Shown here one piece after another: positions 12,412 to 29,966 of a stretch of 53,265 bases of DNA. The position numbers and the translations under genes are program-made. The DNA comes from Pseudomonadales bacterium (GTDB lineage Bacteria > Pseudomonadota > Gammaproteobacteria > Pseudomonadales > Azotimanducaceae), in assembly GCA_022822135.1 (NCBI GenBank), contig JAJECH010000006.1, forward strand, positions 1 to 53,265, given 5' to 3'. The notes under the pieces were generated by a model. It did no database searches. It had not been told where the DNA came from and was given only the letters and a program-made list of their open reading frames with translations. Position 1 is the first letter of the stretch. Each line of letters opens with the position of its first letter.

Positions 12412-13356
12412 ATGCTTCCCTCTGAAACTGACTTTGATCATCTTCGTTTCGATCCCGCGCAGGGAACCGTGATTCGTGACCCTCCTGGTCGGGGCTACGG
12501 ATACTGGGCCGGTGGTCACAAAGTCTCCTTCGATGAACTCTCTGGGCAATACGTTCTCTTCTATCGCGAGCGCACGCCGTTAGAAAAGGGACGCGGAGGA
12601 CGTTGTGCGCTCGCCACCAGTACGGACGGGTTGGAATTTACGGACGTCTGGTCTGCGACCAAAGATGAATTCGCGGCATCGTCGATTGAGGTCGGTCACT
12701 GTGTGCGCGGTCTGGATGGTCGCTGGAAGTTCTACATCTCCTATGAAGTTGCGGGTGCGGGCTATTGGCGGATCGATCTGCTTGAAGGCGAAGAACTGAG
12801 TTCAATCAGTGCACAAGCTAGACGCACCGTTTTTCAGCCGCAAGCTTTCGGTCAACGCTCGCTCAAAGATCCTGTCGTGTACGTTAGCGATGGGTCATAT
12901 TCGGTCTACGTTGCGGGGGCAAGTACCAACGCACCTCGACAGGAAGGCGATGTCTTTCATGTAGGCGGCGGTGATGCCACTTTCTTGGCGACATCCACTG
13001 ATGGAAGATATTTCACGTCCATTCGACGCGTGTTTGAACCACCAAATAGCGACACATGGCACGGTCGCCGTGCACGCATCAACTCTGTCATCCGGGAGAA
13101 GGATGGGTGGCTCGCCTTTTACGACGGTGGGCGAAATTTCTACGACACGTACGAAGAATGGTGTGGACTAGCCTGGAGCGCTGACGGGACGAAATTCGAA
13201 CGACTAGATCAGGAGCAACCCTGGATTCAGTCGTCTTTCGGATGTGTGCGATATGTATATGCGCTCGAAGCAGGTGGGCGGGTGTTCTTCTACTACGAAT
13301 ATACGCGAGAGGACGGATCACACGACCTTCGTGTAAGCGTGGTTAACCGAGATTAA
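12412..13356 (+). CDS. Five-bladed beta-propeller glycosidase-like protein (GH43/GH32/GH130 fold)
   Basis: The 314-residue protein repeats the blade pattern of glycoside hydrolase clan propellers: GYWAGGHKVSFDELSGQYVL near the start, LATSTDGLEFTD, SLKDPVVY (a DP motif typical of GH43/GH130), LATSTDGRYFTS and LAWSADGTKF. There is no signal peptide, so it is probably cytoplasmic. The start ATG 12412 is preceded by AAAAGGA (12397-12403) at good spacing. It follows the exporter genes by 42 bases and could share their transcript. The catalytic acid and base are not assignable by eye, so hydrolase or phosphorylase activity is unproven. Its stop overlaps the stop of the convergent dihydroorotase. 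Confidence 0.65.
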   Translation: MLPSETDFDHLRFDPAQGTVIRDPPGRGYGYWAGGHKVSFDELSGQYVLFYRERTPLEKGRGGRCALATSTDGLEFTDVWSATKDEFAASSIEVGHCVRGLDGRWKFYISYEVAGAGYWRIDLLEGEELSSISAQARRTVFQPQAFGQRSLKDPVVYVSDGSYSVYVAGASTNAPRQEGDVFHVGGGDATFLATSTDGRYFTSIRRVFEPPNSDTWHGRRARINSVIREKDGWLAFYDGGRNFYDTYEEWCGLAWSADGTKFERLDQEQPWIQSSFGCVRYVYALEAGGRVFFYYEYTREDGSHDLRVSVVNRD

Positions 13357-14687
13357 TTCGGGCGGTCGTAGGTTAACGCTTGACCGAGTGGTGCGTCGAT
13401 GACTTCGGCGCCGTCGTAAACCATGGTACCGTTCACGAACGTGTGCGTAACTTTGGACGCAAAGGTAATCCCACCGAAAGGTGACCAACCACACTTCGCC
13501 AAGATCGGCTCATTGTCGATCGACGTACTTTGCGCGCTGTCGATGACCGCGATATCGGCGAAGTAGCCTTCGCGGAGATAGCCACGATTGGCAACGTCAT
13601 AGAGCTCAGCAGGAGCGTGTGACGTTTTGCGAACCAAGGTAGGTACATCGAAAATGCCTTCGATCGCGTGTTCGAACACGGCCAGTAACGCATGTTGAAC
13701 TAACGGTAAACCAGACGGAGCTAACGCAAATGGTTGTTGCTTCTCTTCGATCGTATGCGGGGCGTGATCGGTTGCGATGACATCAATTCGATCCTCTTGG
13801 AGTGCTTTGCGCAACGCGAGCTGATCGGAACGACGTTTGATCGCGGGATTGCACTTAATGAACGTGCCCTTCGATTCGTACCAAGCGTCGTTGAAGAAGA
13901 GGTGGTGGACACACACTTCCGCAGTGATCCGTTTCGACGCGATGAGACCAGGCTCGAATAAGGCCATCTCATCTGCGGTTGTAAGGTGCAATACGTGAAG
14001 TTTTGATCCGTGTTCCTTTGCGAGTGAAACGGCAAGTTCCGAAGATTTAAGACATGCCTCACGCGATCGAATAAGTGGATGCTGGCTCGGCGGCATATCT
14101 TCGCCGAATTCTTCTAACGCCGCGCGTTCATTCTCGATGATGGTGGGGGTGTGTTCACAATGCGTGGCGATCAGAATCGGCGAAGCAGCGAAGATGCCGT
14201 GAAGCGTTTCTTCGTTGTCAACGAGCATGTTGCCGGTTGACGCACCCATGAATACCTTCACACCACATGCAAGGTGTGGATCAACTGACTTAATCGCCTC
14301 TAGATTGTCGTTCGTCGCGCCTAGATAAAAGCCGAAATTCGCATGTGAAACATCTCGTGCGCGCGCGATTTTGGCTCGCAGCCTGTCTTCGTTGATGGTT
14401 TGCGGAACACAGTTTGGCATCTCCATATAACTGGTAATGCCACCCGCGACGGCGGCACGGGATTCCGTCTTGATCTCGCCTTTGTGCTCGAATCCCGGCT
14501 CACGGAAATGAACCTGATCGTCGATCATCCCAGGGATAACCCATGCGCCATTCACGTCGATCTCGGTCTGGCCGGTGGCGACGCCGCCGACTTGAGAGAT
14601 CCGTTCGCCATCCATAGCCAGATCGCCTTCTAACGTACGACCTTCGTTTACCAGCGTACCGTTTTTTAAAACTACAGAATTGGGCAA
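13353..14687 (-). CDS. pyrC: Dihydroorotase, class I-like
   Basis: The 444-residue amidohydrolase would cyclise N-carbamoyl-L-aspartate to dihydroorotate in pyrimidine synthesis. Visible metal-site elements are IDDQVHFREPG (56-65), Lys144 in CGVKVFMG (the carboxylated lysine), His176/His179 in ATHCEHT, His231/His234 in LHVLHL, and Asp307 in ATDHAPHT. The first His of the usual HxH pair is Gln58, which I recall from a dihydroorotase subgroup common in Bacteroidetes. The start is TTG 14687 with an AGGA ribosome site about 8 bases upstream. The selenoprotein gene starts divergently only 18 bases away. A hydantoinase-like role cannot be excluded. Confidence 0.8.
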   Translation of the reverse strand: MPNSVVLKNGTLVNEGRTLEGDLAMDGERISQVGGVATGQTEIDVNGAWVIPGMIDDQVHFREPGFEHKGEIKTESRAAVAGGITSYMEMPNCVPQTINEDRLRAKIARARDVSHANFGFYLGATNDNLEAIKSVDPHLACGVKVFMGASTGNMLVDNEETLHGIFAASPILIATHCEHTPTIIENERAALEEFGEDMPPSQHPLIRSREACLKSSELAVSLAKEHGSKLHVLHLTTADEMALFEPGLIASKRITAEVCVHHLFFNDAWYESKGTFIKCNPAIKRRSDQLALRKALQEDRIDVIATDHAPHTIEEKQQPFALAPSGLPLVQHALLAVFEHAIEGIFDVPTLVRKTSHAPAELYDVANRGYLREGYFADIAVIDSAQSTSIDNEPILAKCGWSPFGGITFASKVTHTFVNGTMVYDGAEVIDAPLGQALTYDRPN

Positions 14688-14705: not shown

Positions 14706-15638
14706 ATGGTTCATCGACCGATGACGACATTCGATCGGATTTGCTTAATCGACCCTATGTATGATATTTCGATGCATAAAGCCCAACCAGTTCAATACAT
14801 GGAACGCACGCGTCTCTACTACGAGGCGCAAGGATTCGATCGCGCCTATCAATGGGCGCAACACGACGACGTTCCGTTCACACCTCTAAGCAAACCGCTT
14901 TCCGAGTCGCGAATAGCGGTGGTAACCACAGGCGCGCGTTACGACAGATTGATGACAGATCCGCGTTTCGTCGACTCAGGTGACGTCAATGACCTACCGT
15001 CCCACCTTTTTGCTCGAGACTTAGCTTGGGACAAGAACGCGACTCACCTTAACGATCTAGGTTCATATCTGCCCGTCCGAGTCCTGCAGAAGTTCGCAGA
15101 GAATGGCAGCATTCACAGCATCGCGCCACGTTTTCATTGCCTCCCGACAGAATATAGTCAGCGTCGAACCCGAGAAACTGATGCCCCTGAGGTCCTTTCG
15201 CGGTGTCAGGAGGATCGAGCCGATCTTGCGCTGCTGGTGCCGTTGTGACCGGTTTGCCATCAGTCCGTTGGACTGACAGCACGGCATCTCGAAGCCAACG
15301 GTATCCCGACCGTTATTCTCGGATCGGCGATTGACATCGTCGAACAATGTGGCGTACCGCGGTTTTACTTTGTCGACTTTCCTCTTGGTAATCCTTGCGG
15401 AAAACCATACGATCTAGACATGCAGCAGAGCATCGTGTCTGCGGCTTTGCAACTATTTGAGACGGCGTCGGAGCCGGGTACAGTGGTCAAAGACCCGAAT
15501 CGATGGGGAACCGATGAGTGGCGGCAGCGCTACATGGAGATCAATTCCGAAGATCGCGAGCGGATGCTGCGACAAGGCGAAGAGCGACGTCGTGAGCGGA
15601 AGCGTTTGCGAGATATCGGACACACCCGTCAAGACTAG
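14706..15638 (+). CDS. Selenoprotein of the GrdB/PrdB-like reductase family, in-frame UGA = selenocysteine
   Basis: One frame runs from ATG 14706 to the stop at 15638, interrupted only by TGA at 15246-15248. Sequence on both sides is coherent: ...DLALLVPL-[UGA]-PVCHQSVGLTARHLE... In the glycine/sarcosine/betaine/D-proline reductase selenoprotein B family this position is Sec or Cys in a U/C-P-x-C motif, which points to Sec181 with Cys184 as partner. A SECIS-like hairpin follows at 15260-15276. The product would be 310 residues. The family reduces C-N bonds in amino-acid derivatives or acts as an uncharacterised redox enzyme; the exact substrate is unknown. Alternative starts are ATG 14721 or 14757, none with a clear ribosome site. 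It precedes glcDEF on the same strand. Confidence 0.82.
15246..15276 (+). promoter_or_regulatory. Bacterial SECIS-like element (UGA plus hairpin)
   Basis: After the TGA at 15246-15248 and an 11-base spacer, TCAGTCC (15260-15266) pairs with GGACTGA (15270-15276) in a perfect 7-base-pair stem with loop GTT. The UGA-to-loop distance is 18 bases, and the first loop base is G. Both agree with the known bacterial SECIS layout, in which SelB binds the hairpin and delivers Sec-tRNA. Confidence 0.7.
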
Positions 15639-15696: not shown

Positions 15697-17151
15697 ATGT
15701 CGCTTGAGTTTGCGATTGAACTCATCAAATCGACGTTACCTAGGGACTGCGTTCTAACCGACGCGACTGCGACTACGCCGTTCGAAACTGACGGACTGAC
15801 CGCGTATCGTCAACGACCACCTGTCGTCGCACTTCCACGAGATACCAACGACGTACGCCAAGTCCTTCGGATTTGCCACGAGACGGGCGTTCCAGTCGTT
15901 ACCAGAGGTGCGGGAACGGGTCTTTCGGGTGGTGCGTTACCACTTGAGAACGGCGTCCTTCTCGTTCTGACCAAGATGAACCGTATTCTCGAAGTCGACG
16001 AAACTGGTTGCACCGCGACCGTGCAGCCAGGCGTTACCAACCTCTCGATCTCAGATGCCGTAGCCGATAAAGGACTCTATTACGCACCTGACCCATCGTC
16101 ACAGATCGCATGTAGTATCGGCGGCAACGTTGCGGAAAACGCCGGTGGCGTGCATTGTTTGAAGTACGGGCTGACACTACATAACGTGTTAGGGCTGAAA
16201 GTGCAGACAATCGAAGGAGACGAACTGACATTAGGCGGAAATGGGTACGAGAGCTCAGGCATTGAGCTCATTCCATTATTCGTCGGCTCGGAAGGTATGT
16301 TGGGCGTTGTTACCGAGATCACGGTTAAGTTGCTGCCGTCTCCACCGTGCAAGGAAGTACTGCTAGGCGCGTTCGACGATGTGGAATCTGCTGGCGAATG
16401 CGTGGCCGCAATCATCGCGCGTGGGGTCGTACCGGCCGGTCTAGAAATGATGGACGCTTTGGCGATTCAAGCCGCCGAGGACTTTGTCCACGCTGGATAT
16501 CCGCGCGACGCAGCAACGATTCTTCTGTGTGAAGTTGATGGTACGAAGGAGCAGGTGCGTAGCGATGTGACGCTGATTCGACAGCTAATGGAAACAAACG
16601 GCGCTGTCAACATCCGTAGTGCGTCCGAACCTGACGAGCGTGACCTTCTCTGGCAAGGTCGAAAAGCAGCGTTTCCCGCAGTTGGACGAATTTCACCCGA
16701 CTATTACTGCATGGACGGTACGATTCCTCGGCGCTTTCTGGGGAAGATTCTGTCGAGCATAGCGTTGTTGGCGGCAAAGCATGAACTGCGCGTCGCAAAT
16801 GTGTTTCACGCGGGCGATGGCAATCTTCACCCGCTAATCCTCTACGACGCGAGCGATGACGAGCAACTTCATCGTGCGGAACGCCTTGGTGTGGAGATTC
16901 TTGAACTATGCGTGGCAGTTGGTGGCACCGTTACCGGGGAACACGGCGTCGGTGTCGAGAAGCTCGATCCCATGTGTTCTCAATTCTCAACACCTGAACT
17001 TGAGCAGTTCTTCCGGCTTAAGGAAGTATTCGACACGAGTGGATTAATGAACCCGGGTAAAGCCATACCTACACTCGCGCATTGTTCCGAGATCAAAGGC
17101 ATGCACGTGCACGGTGGCAAACTTCCATTTCCGGAACTTGACCGGTTTTGA
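15697..17151 (+). CDS. glcD: Glycolate oxidase subunit GlcD (FAD-linked)
   Basis: The 484-residue flavoprotein has the PCMH FAD-binding domain (RGAGTGLSGGALP at about 70, PDPSSQIACSIGGNVAENAGG at about 130-150, VGSEGMLGVVTEITVKLLPSP) and the C-terminal VFHAGDGNLHP and GTVTGEHGVGVEK motifs. Length and motifs match GlcD, the catalytic subunit that oxidises glycolate (or D-lactate-type 2-hydroxyacids) to the 2-oxoacid. glcE and glcF follow in the usual order, with the glcE start overlapping this stop by 4 bases. Confidence 0.92.
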   Translation: MSLEFAIELIKSTLPRDCVLTDATATTPFETDGLTAYRQRPPVVALPRDTNDVRQVLRICHETGVPVVTRGAGTGLSGGALPLENGVLLVLTKMNRILEVDETGCTATVQPGVTNLSISDAVADKGLYYAPDPSSQIACSIGGNVAENAGGVHCLKYGLTLHNVLGLKVQTIEGDELTLGGNGYESSGIELIPLFVGSEGMLGVVTEITVKLLPSPPCKEVLLGAFDDVESAGECVAAIIARGVVPAGLEMMDALAIQAAEDFVHAGYPRDAATILLCEVDGTKEQVRSDVTLIRQLMETNGAVNIRSASEPDERDLLWQGRKAAFPAVGRISPDYYCMDGTIPRRFLGKILSSIALLAAKHELRVANVFHAGDGNLHPLILYDASDDEQLHRAERLGVEILELCVAVGGTVTGEHGVGVEKLDPMCSQFSTPELEQFFRLKEVFDTSGLMNPGKAIPTLAHCSEIKGMHVHGGKLPFPELDRF

Positions 17152-18173
17152 CGCAACCATTCGACGATTCGCAGCGTCTCCTCGACTCGGTCAAACAAGC
17201 CGTCGCACAGAAGCGGCAGCTGTCCATCCTTGGTCACGGAACGAAGGCACACTATGCAAGATCGACTCACGGGGATGCGTTACAGTCTCGAGACCATGTC
17301 GGCGTTATCGAATATCAACCGGATGAGCTGACGATTTCAGTACGAGCTGGAACACCTTTGACGGTTATCGCGGAAACTCTCGACCAACATAACCAAATGC
17401 TCGCCTGTGACCCACCTAGATTTTTTGGTGGAGGAACAATTGGCGGCGCGGTAGCCAGCGGATTGAGTGGACCTGGCAGGCCATGGTACGGCAATCTTCG
17501 AGATGCGGTGCTCGGCGTCGAAATGATCAACGGACTCGGTGAACGTTTGACATTTGGCGGTTCGGTGATGAAAAACGTCGCTGGGTTTGACATATCTCGC
17601 ATGATGGTGGGGTCGCTCGGTGTGTTTGGCGTGATTCTGAGTGTGAATCTACGGGTACATCCCAAACCTGAAATTGAGCGCACGATTTCGCTTGATCTGA
17701 ACTGGGACGACGCATGGTCGGTTCTATGCGAAACGATCGCTAAGCCGACCGCAGTGACCGCGACCTGTTATTGGTCAGGTTCGCTCTATCTACGCCTCGC
17801 TGGCAATCGTGCAAGCGTTGAAGAAGCATGCTCGAGTTTTCCTTCTAATACAGAAATCGAAAACGATGTCTGGGTGCACCTTCGCGATCACGAACATTCG
17901 TTTTTTCAATCGAGCGAGGAACTGAGACGCACATGGCTCGGTCGTGGCTTGCAACCTCAGATCGAGAATGATGAGAGTAACTTGATTGAATGGGCGGGTG
18001 CACAGGTCTGGTCATTCAAAGTTCACGGTGATTCGGCTGCGCTTGGTCAGCGCATTTCCAGTGAACCATTCAACCGTTCAAGTGCGGCTCCTTCAACGGA
18101 ATCGAAATACATGAGACGATTGAGACGTGCGTTCGATCCGCATCAACTGTTCAACAGCGATCTGCTCCTCTAG
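17148..18173 (+). CDS. glcE: Glycolate oxidase subunit GlcE (FAD-binding)
   Basis: This 341-residue protein starts at TTG 17148, whose TTGA overlaps the glcD stop. The FAD-binding half is visible: LGHGTKAHY, VRAGTPLTVIAETL, CDPPRFFGGGTIGGAVASGL and MKNVAGFDISRMMVGSLG. GlcE is the second flavin-binding subunit of glycolate oxidase and is required with GlcD and GlcF. The C-terminal RLRRAFDPHQLFNSD motif is typical. Confidence 0.9.
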   Translation: MTQPFDDSQRLLDSVKQAVAQKRQLSILGHGTKAHYARSTHGDALQSRDHVGVIEYQPDELTISVRAGTPLTVIAETLDQHNQMLACDPPRFFGGGTIGGAVASGLSGPGRPWYGNLRDAVLGVEMINGLGERLTFGGSVMKNVAGFDISRMMVGSLGVFGVILSVNLRVHPKPEIERTISLDLNWDDAWSVLCETIAKPTAVTATCYWSGSLYLRLAGNRASVEEACSSFPSNTEIENDVWVHLRDHEHSFFQSSEELRRTWLGRGLQPQIENDESNLIEWAGAQVWSFKVHGDSAALGQRISSEPFNRSSAAPSTESKYMRRLRRAFDPHQLFNSDLLL

Positions 18174-18175
18174 TT

Positions 18176-19336
18176 ATGCGCGTTGAACTTGCACAAGCAT
18201 TGGTTGACACTGCAGACGGTCAACGTGCAGAGGAAATTCTTCGCAAGTGCGTACATTGCGGATTTTGCAATGCGACGTGCCCGACATACAACCTCCTCGG
18301 CGATGAGCTTGATGGACCGCGAGGTCGAATATACCTGATCAAAGGCATGTTTGAGTCGGACGAGGTCGATGAACACGCGCGCTTTCACCTTGACCGTTGT
18401 TTGACGTGCCGTAACTGCGAGACAACATGCCCGTCCGGTGTTGAATACGGCGAGCTCCTTGAATTAGGTCGCGACTACATTCATCGGCAATCACCCGTCG
18501 CTTCGTTGCTCGAACGTATCCTCCTTTGGGTTGTCCCGTTCCATCGTCGGCTTCGTTTTTTGGTACGCCTCGGACGTCTTGTTCGGTGGTTCGCGCCAAA
18601 GTCTTTGAAGCGCATGCTTCAGCCTGTCCGCACGGCTCGTGTGGAAGACGATGGTTCAGAAGCTACAGTCACGTTGCTTCAGGGCTGTGCACAACGTGCA
18701 ATGACGCCCGAAGTCAATCAACATATCGCCAAGTTATTACGTGCGCGTGATGTAACCGTCAGATTCATTTCTTCGGAACATTGTTGTGGTGGTTTGCACT
18801 TACATCTTGGTCGACATGACCAAGCATTGAAGCACATGACACAGAATGTCAACGCGTTGTATAGCGAGACGACCACCACTTACGTCTCGTCAGCATCCGG
18901 ATGCGGAGTAACGGTTAAGGACTATGGAAGGCTTCTTGGTACGAAGGAGGCCGTGGCGCTAGCGGATCGTACGCAAGACATCGCTGAATACCTACAGCAA
19001 TTCACGTTTGAACGCCATCCGAATATCGTGCGAGTAGCACTGCATATTCCCTGTACGTTGCAACATGGTCAACGGATTCACGGTCTGATCGAGCAGATTC
19101 TCAAACGTACTGGTTACGAGCTTGTACCCGTTCGAGACAGCGATCTTTGTTGTGGTTCCGCCGGGTCGTACTCGCTACTCCAACCAGAACTGTCGGAGCG
19201 GTTGTTAGACCGTAAGCTGACTTCGTTAGAAGAACGCGCACCTGACGTTATTGCTACCGCGAATGTGGGATGTCAGCTGCATCTCACGTCTGGTACATCG
19301 ACACGCGTTGTGCATTGGGTGAGCTTGCTACGCTAA
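18176..19336 (+). CDS. glcF: Glycolate oxidase iron-sulfur subunit GlcF
   Basis: The 386-residue subunit carries two 4Fe-4S ferredoxin motifs (Cys25, 28, 31, 35 and Cys75, 78, 81, 85) followed by two CCG domains (HCCGGLHLHLG and LCCGSAGSY), as in GlcF. It passes electrons from the GlcDE flavoproteins to the membrane quinone pool. It begins 2 bases after the glcE stop. Its stop overlaps the stop of the convergent DsbA-family gene, and a strong hairpin begins 4 bases after its stop. Confidence 0.92.
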   Translation: MRVELAQALVDTADGQRAEEILRKCVHCGFCNATCPTYNLLGDELDGPRGRIYLIKGMFESDEVDEHARFHLDRCLTCRNCETTCPSGVEYGELLELGRDYIHRQSPVASLLERILLWVVPFHRRLRFLVRLGRLVRWFAPKSLKRMLQPVRTARVEDDGSEATVTLLQGCAQRAMTPEVNQHIAKLLRARDVTVRFISSEHCCGGLHLHLGRHDQALKHMTQNVNALYSETTTTYVSSASGCGVTVKDYGRLLGTKEAVALADRTQDIAEYLQQFTFERHPNIVRVALHIPCTLQHGQRIHGLIEQILKRTGYELVPVRDSDLCCGSAGSYSLLQPELSERLLDRKLTSLEERAPDVIATANVGCQLHLTSGTSTRVVHWVSLLR

Positions 19337-29614: not shown

Positions 29615-29966
29615 AGTGTCGGGAGTCAACCAAGCAATCGCCGGCGTCATAAGACGCGGGAGGAAAGTCCGGGCACTGCAGGACACGGTGCCAGGTAACG
29701 CCTGGGGAGCGAAAGCTCACGGCAAGTGCAACAGAAAATACACCGCTCGATCCGTCGAGTAAGGGTGAAATGGTGCGGTAAGAGCGCACCGCGAGACTGG
29801 TAACAGGATCGGCAAGGTAAACCCCACCGAGTGCAAGGCTGAATAGGAACCTAGGGCGTGGTCCGCGTCGGTTCGGGTAAGCTGCTAGTGGAAGTGTACG
29901 GCGACGTACGCTCTAGATGAATGATTGCTCTCGACAGAACCCGGCTTATCGGTTGACTCCCACACT
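29615..29966 (+). ncRNA. rnpB: RNase P RNA, class A
   Basis: The conserved core is unmistakable: GGAGGAAAGTCCGGGC at about 29660, AGGGTGAAATGGTGCGGTAA with AGAGCGCACCG, and the ACAGAA-type motif near 29730. The ends pair: 29621-29631 with 29951-29961 is an 11-base-pair P1 helix, and AGTGT (29615-29619) with ACACT (29962-29966) extends it past a bulged C. About 350 nt is the normal length. Exact ends are approximate. Confidence 0.96.

Follow-up and report, generated by a model that had tools for sequence, protein, structure and literature searches.

A PrdB-like gene with a conserved in-frame UGA, very probably read as selenocysteine, upstream of glcDEF in a bacterium of the Azotimanducaceae

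Results

Locus, reading frame and start

The window analysed here is a 53,265-nucleotide stretch of contig JAJECH010000006.1 (assembly GCA_022822135.1) from a bacterium of the Azotimanducaceae (Pseudomonadales). Its forward strand carries a PrdB-like gene with an in-frame TGA, flanked by a divergent dihydroorotase-family gene and by glcD, glcE and glcF (Table 1). Positions 14706–15638 (+) form a single frame that ends in TAG at 15636–15638 and has this TGA as its sole interruption. The preliminary description, made from the sequence alone, had read one frame here and placed the TGA at a U-P-x-C motif, and both points were borne out by the frame and its translation (LVPL-U-PVCHQSVGL). The frame list shows two pieces, the two fragments that automatic annotation had been expected to give. 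Each piece alone matched the PrdB profile TIGR04483 (E = 1.8e-05 for the 180-aa piece and 2.4e-12 for the 129-aa piece). The read-through product matched the profile with E = 1.5e-24 and 86.8 bits, against a curated cut-off of 300, the homology spanning residues 58–264 of the 310-aa product. A mechanical scan found 10 TGA-split frames in the window, and a Cys lies at +3 residues after the TGA in this one only; relatives were traced for the PrdB-like frame alone.

The 310-residue product proposed earlier is probably too long at its N-terminus. In the alignment, ATG 14706 is not conserved, while ATG 14772 is the start common to the closest relatives; in three close relatives (L052, L019 and L020) the frame is closed by stops immediately before the position equivalent to 14757, and a fourth (L021) has AAG at the position of ATG 14757. 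The alignment points to ATG 14772 as the probable true start, giving a product of 288 aa.

Table 1. Features of the PrdB-like locus and of the remaining window, with the basis of each assignment
Feature	Position	Strand	Remarks
Dihydroorotase-family gene, divergent	13353..14687	-	NF006688, 661 bits, over cut-off; synteny
PrdB-like gene, very probably a selenoprotein gene; likely extent	14772..15638	+	288 aa, Sec159; alternative start 14757; start inferred from alignment
In-frame TGA, very probably read as selenocysteine (U-P-V-C-H-Q motif)	15246..15248	+	TGA 94/101, TGC 7/101
SECIS-like hairpin	15260..15276	+	15260–15265 pairs with 15271–15276; apical loop GUU 15267–15269
glcD, glycolate oxidase subunit	15697..17151	+	NF008408, 739.6 bits, cut-off 897 not reached; synteny
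glcE	17148..18173	+	NF008439, over cut-off; synteny
glcF	18176..19336	+	NF008434, over cut-off; synteny
RNase P RNA, class A	29622..29964	+	Rfam, 312.6 bits

Genomic neighbourhood

The position directly upstream of glcDEF and divergent from a dihydroorotase gene, noted in the preliminary description, was confirmed by profiles for both neighbours. The order dihydroorotase (-), PrdB-like gene (+), glcD, glcE, glcF, DsbA-like gene and glutaredoxin-like gene is kept in seven genomes of the genus (the window's own, G001, G004, G006, G015, G016 and G017). The PrdB-like gene and glcD, on the same strand, are separated by 58 bp in the window and by 21–206 bp in the five cases measured, and the gene is probably co-transcribed with glcDEF in this genus. 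Among the 18 genus members searched, the gene is absent in eight and stands in another context in three (G003, G007 and G014). The glcDEF/dihydroorotase setting was not seen at loci outside the genus, a GlcD-like match of 28% at L087 being all that resembled it there. Same-strand neighbours in other genera are mixed (56 of the 57 collected, an overlong frame at L099 being left out); in a tally of the best 25 of 78 Pfam families, the commonest content at these other loci was acyl-CoA thioesterase (five), followed by methyltransferase, MFS and metallophosphatase (three each). The suggestion that the neighbours hint at a metabolic setting thus stands within one genus and fails beyond it.

In one subclade (L076, L077, L078, L082 and L088), three genes precede the PrdB-like one: an ArsR-like regulator carrying an extra domain, an S-adenosylhomocysteinase-like gene and an acyl-CoA thioesterase; the ArsR-like and S-adenosylhomocysteinase-like neighbours were named by eye.

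Conservation of the UGA codon and selection around it

A search of 117 relatives gave a match at E <= 0.001 in 60 genomes. At least one in-frame TGA was present in 142 of the 143 matches listed and none in the remaining one; the codon itself was examined in 91 of these 143, the window included. Removal of duplicate DNA left 95 distinct sequences out of 118 placed hits (117 sources); of these, 92 have TGA and three TGC at the site, and six further sequences from a class-wide sample added two TGA and four TGC. The site is thus TGA in 94 and TGC (Cys) in seven of 101 homologous places, with no other codon; an unrelated residue in homologues, which the preliminary description had named as a possible refutation, was not seen. 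The Cys forms are the Roseomonas and Haematobacter plasmid genes, one from the same family (G056) and four from other families of the class. Since a match at E <= 1e-20 was found in only 7 of the 369 genomes of the class sample, the window's own included, the Sec form seems to occur mainly in the family to which the window belongs. Some genomes have more than one homologue, with up to six matches per genome, and in G074 three PrdB/GrdB-like matches with TGA lie on one contig (L131, G074:C2), spread over about 31 kb. The search of viral_contigs found no relative.

Compared with five relatives, dN/dS was about 0.04–0.09 on both sides of the TGA (four comparisons computable before it and five after it), with dS near saturation.

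A covarying SECIS-like hairpin

Bacterial SECIS elements are hairpins that follow the UGA closely on its 3' side and have a GU-type loop. Such a hairpin follows the TGA of the window (Table 1), with an additional pair at 15266/15270. Numbered from the T of the TGA, its stem occupies columns 15–20 and 26–31; the six pairs are complete in 71 of the 92 TGA sequences, against 13 of 92 for the best unrelated register, and loop columns 22–23 are GU in 89 of 92. Covariation was assessed in a gapless alignment of 91 (88 distinct) of the 92 TGA sequences, which omits L074, a clostridial PrdB with three of the six pairs. In this alignment 96.2% of cells are paired and five of the six pairs vary at both of their positions. 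The covariation was 0.452, whereas shuffles averaged 0.153 and 0 of 500 reached the observed value; slid controls gave at most 0.099. RNAalifold, unprompted, returned the same six pairs. The Cys homologues retain 3, 4 and 3, and 4, 4, 4 and 5, of the six.

Folded as a single sequence, the window hairpin surpassed its shuffles only slightly (z = -1.61), 14 of the 200 shuffles being equally good. The energy of 60 nt compared with synonymous-codon shuffles gave a mean z of -0.14, with 18 of 92 sequences below -1, a test that is weak because its codon pool was drawn from the same sites. Covariation is the informative test of the hairpin, and the energy tests are weak or negative.

These results bear on whether the locus is a pseudogene or contains a sequencing error, the TGA being a real stop or a misread TGC or TGT. 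The two fragments expected from automatic annotation would suit such a reading, but the same-site TGA recurs in 94 of 101 places and many genera, purifying selection continues after it, and the hairpin covaries. A sequencing error in place of TGC or TGT, which the preliminary description had named as a possible refutation, is excluded by the TGA in dozens of independent genomes. We reject this explanation as extremely improbable in view of the conservation of the site.

Selenocysteine machinery

The preliminary description had made the reading depend on selA, selB, selC and selD, and all four were found in the window's own genome (G000, 97.6% complete) over curated cut-offs: selC with 71.1 bits (cut-off 47; ARAGORN, tRNA-SeC with anticodon tca), selB with 411.6 bits and selA with 544.8 bits, on the same strand 38 bp apart, and selD with 256.7 bits. 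Among 14 control genomes, selC was over its cut-off in five, selB in two, selA in one and selD in two. Sub-cut-off matches to selB, selC and selD were frequent among these controls, so the curated cut-off is decisive for these three. A selA match accompanied the homologue in 57 of 60 genomes and was present in 16 of the 57 genomes that have no homologue (Fisher p 1e-14, a value that ignores relatedness, which inflates the co-occurrence). The three genomes with a homologue but no selA match (G057, G069 and G076), as well as three of the 57 with both in which selA appears only as sub-cut-off pieces (G045, G047 and G056), are draft assemblies.

SelD of the window's genome (L048, G000:C26:161753-162655) makes up the C-terminal portion of a frame of 739 codons, the N-terminal portion of which, named by eye, is pyridine-nucleotide-oxidoreductase-like.

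A different residue at the UGA, either Trp through a genome-wide change of code or one inserted by near-cognate read-through, found no support: the non-TGA places are all Cys (7 of 7) and never Trp, several homologues use UGA as an ordinary stop, and the genome has selABCD. With Cys as the sole exchange partner and selABCD present, the Trp reading was rejected, and the whole alternative appears highly improbable. The exclusive exchange of TGA with TGC, the covarying SECIS-like hairpin and the full selABCD set instead support selenocysteine, which the TGA very probably encodes.

Predicted structure

AlphaFold2 gave one confident fold for the 288 residues (pLDDT 95.4; pTM 0.93), with Sec159 between strand 152–156 and helix 160–175. 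The product is predicted to be Rossmann-like, with Sec159 of the U-P-x-C motif placed where a helix begins. A PDB sequence search with the single protein returned nothing at E <= 1, and a PDB profile search gave nothing better than two chance-level matches (E = 0.17).

Placement in the PrdB/GrdB superfamily

The protein alignment comprised 53 of 85 usable proteins, and the PrdB profile matched all 53 members scanned. The match of the product to Pfam PF07355 (GRDB) reached 10.6 bits, under the cut-off of 22. In a tree of 99 rows, drawn with a midpoint root, the window protein falls within a PrdB-like clade of 61 rows (support 100/100) in which Sec and Cys forms are mixed; true PrdB (five rows; 100/100) and long GrdB-like proteins (eight rows; 100/99) each group separately. 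PF09338, the PrdA/GrdE family, was found in 0 of 38 genomes, although the model matches a plasmid with prdA as positive control. A PrdA query against the window's own genome, a search without its own positive control, gave no match at E <= 1.

A clade of paralogues (11 rows; L115 and L117–L126) keeps the UGA and the hairpin and has U-P-L-D in place of U-P-x-C. At the Roseomonas locus (L072, 8001–10353), the neighbour of the Cys form carries the annotation protein adenylyltransferase SelO. On a 21.7-kb Terrisporobacter plasmid (L135; NZ_CP154621.1, 1–12910), prdA, prdB with an in-frame UGA, selD and selA lie together; its gene content suggests that proline reductase travels on this plasmid along with some of the Sec machinery it needs.

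Discussion

We hold with high confidence that the locus is a real selenoprotein gene in which UGA 15246–15248 specifies selenocysteine and whose product is likeliest a selenol-based reductase. The ribosome would read this UGA as Sec by means of tRNA-Sec (selC), SelB and the downstream mRNA hairpin. Site conservation, hairpin, machinery and synteny are computational findings, while Sec insertion itself, the reductase activity and co-transcription are inferred. A frame that annotation would split thus becomes a well-supported selenoprotein with hairpin, machinery and genome setting.

The preliminary description had assigned the Sec site to a GrdB/PrdB-like group. The site and the superfamily stand, but membership in true PrdB or GrdB does not. 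That the protein is a D-proline reductase PrdB, or a glycine/sarcosine/betaine reductase GrdB, would agree with TIGR04483 as its best profile, with a Sec site that is the same as in clostridial PrdB, and with the name proline reductase given to marine relatives in PMC1088965 and PMC2398784. Against it stand a score far under the curated cut-off (87 bits versus 300), the position of the true PrdB rows outside the window's clade, and the failure to find a PrdA/GrdE-type partner, either by PF09338, whose model detects the plasmid prdA, or by the PrdA query in the own genome. For these reasons membership was not upheld, and we regard it as very unlikely. The protein is instead best placed, from its profiles and phylogeny, as a superfamily member in a distinct PrdB-like clade. 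These are grounds for questioning whether PrdB-like selenoproteins act as D-proline reductases in such marine bacteria.

Homology and the motif, the two grounds for a function, make a selenol-based reductase most likely. In the mechanism we propose, the selenol of Sec159 would act as the nucleophile that attacks the substrate, and would be regenerated through a selenenylsulfide with Cys162 as the resolving thiol and a cellular thiol as electron donor. The protein seems to act without a pyruvoyl partner of the PrdA/GrdE type, so its chemistry is probably not that of D-proline or glycine reductase. A possible, though less likely, alternative is that the protein is an oxidoreductase of the thiol-disulfide or peroxide-defence kind, which would carry electrons generally instead of reducing a specific substrate. 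UxxC is typical of thiol oxidoreductases, and the conserved block continues past glcF with DsbA-like and glutaredoxin-like genes; on the other hand, no thioredoxin-type match was found in Pfam or NCBIfam, and the U-P-L-D paralogues, which have no second Cys, suit a nucleophile better than a dithiol carrier.

For the selenol-based reductase, the conserved operon neighbour glcDEF offers a basis for guessing the substrate. Substituted acetates are known or proposed substrates of GrdB relatives, and with glycolate genes adjacent, a 2-substituted acid would by analogy be a reasonable guess. We suggest, as a decidedly doubtful extension, that the clade might consist of stand-alone selenol enzymes that cleave the C-X bond of small 2-substituted acids without a pyruvoyl partner, feed the glcDEF glycolate/glyoxylate route in this genus, and have radiated into several paralogous lineages, one of them without the second Cys (U-P-L-D). 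If this were true, the label 'proline reductase' on hundreds of marine selenoproteins would be wrong.

PrdB-type UxxC selenoproteins have already been reported from marine data, and the window gene adds one. From the Sargasso Sea, 42 such genes were described (PMC1088965), and 235 PrdB-type selenoproteins with 110 Cys homologues from GOS (PMC2398784), in both cases under the name proline reductase PrdB. By this published description, they resemble the window protein in their likely marine origin, the UxxC motif and the PrdB/GrdB superfamily. They differ in that, so far as described, they are metagenomic fragments, whereas genome context and machinery are seen here, and in their name, since the window clade does not appear to be proline reductase PrdB. 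Among the open-licence papers listed, judged by titles and the beginnings of abstracts, no tie of such a gene to glcDEF was found. Reduction of fluoroacetate by a GrdB-like protein, FarB, was proposed from operon induction (PMC10838667); as in our proposal, a selenol would attack a C-X bond.

Among characterized families, PrdB (TIGR04483) is homologous over the residues given above and has an equivalent Sec site. The window protein differs from it by extensions at the N-terminus (about 35 residues) and the C-terminus, by UPVCHQ in place of the UGTCHR of clostridial PrdB, by its separate clade and by prdA not having been found. GrdB, GrdF and GrdH (TIGR01917/01918, NF040794 and NF040795) show a weak full-domain match (E = 2.5e-07 to 8.1e-05) and likewise have Sec in a UxxC site, but are about 435 residues long, compared with about 288 here, and their GrdE-type partner was not found. 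The Cys forms on Roseomonas and Haematobacter plasmids, annotated 'glycine/sarcosine/betaine reductase selenoprotein B family protein', belong to the same clade (46% and 42% identity) and share the motif as CPVCHQ or CPICHQ, while having TGC for TGA, three of the six hairpin pairs and other neighbours.
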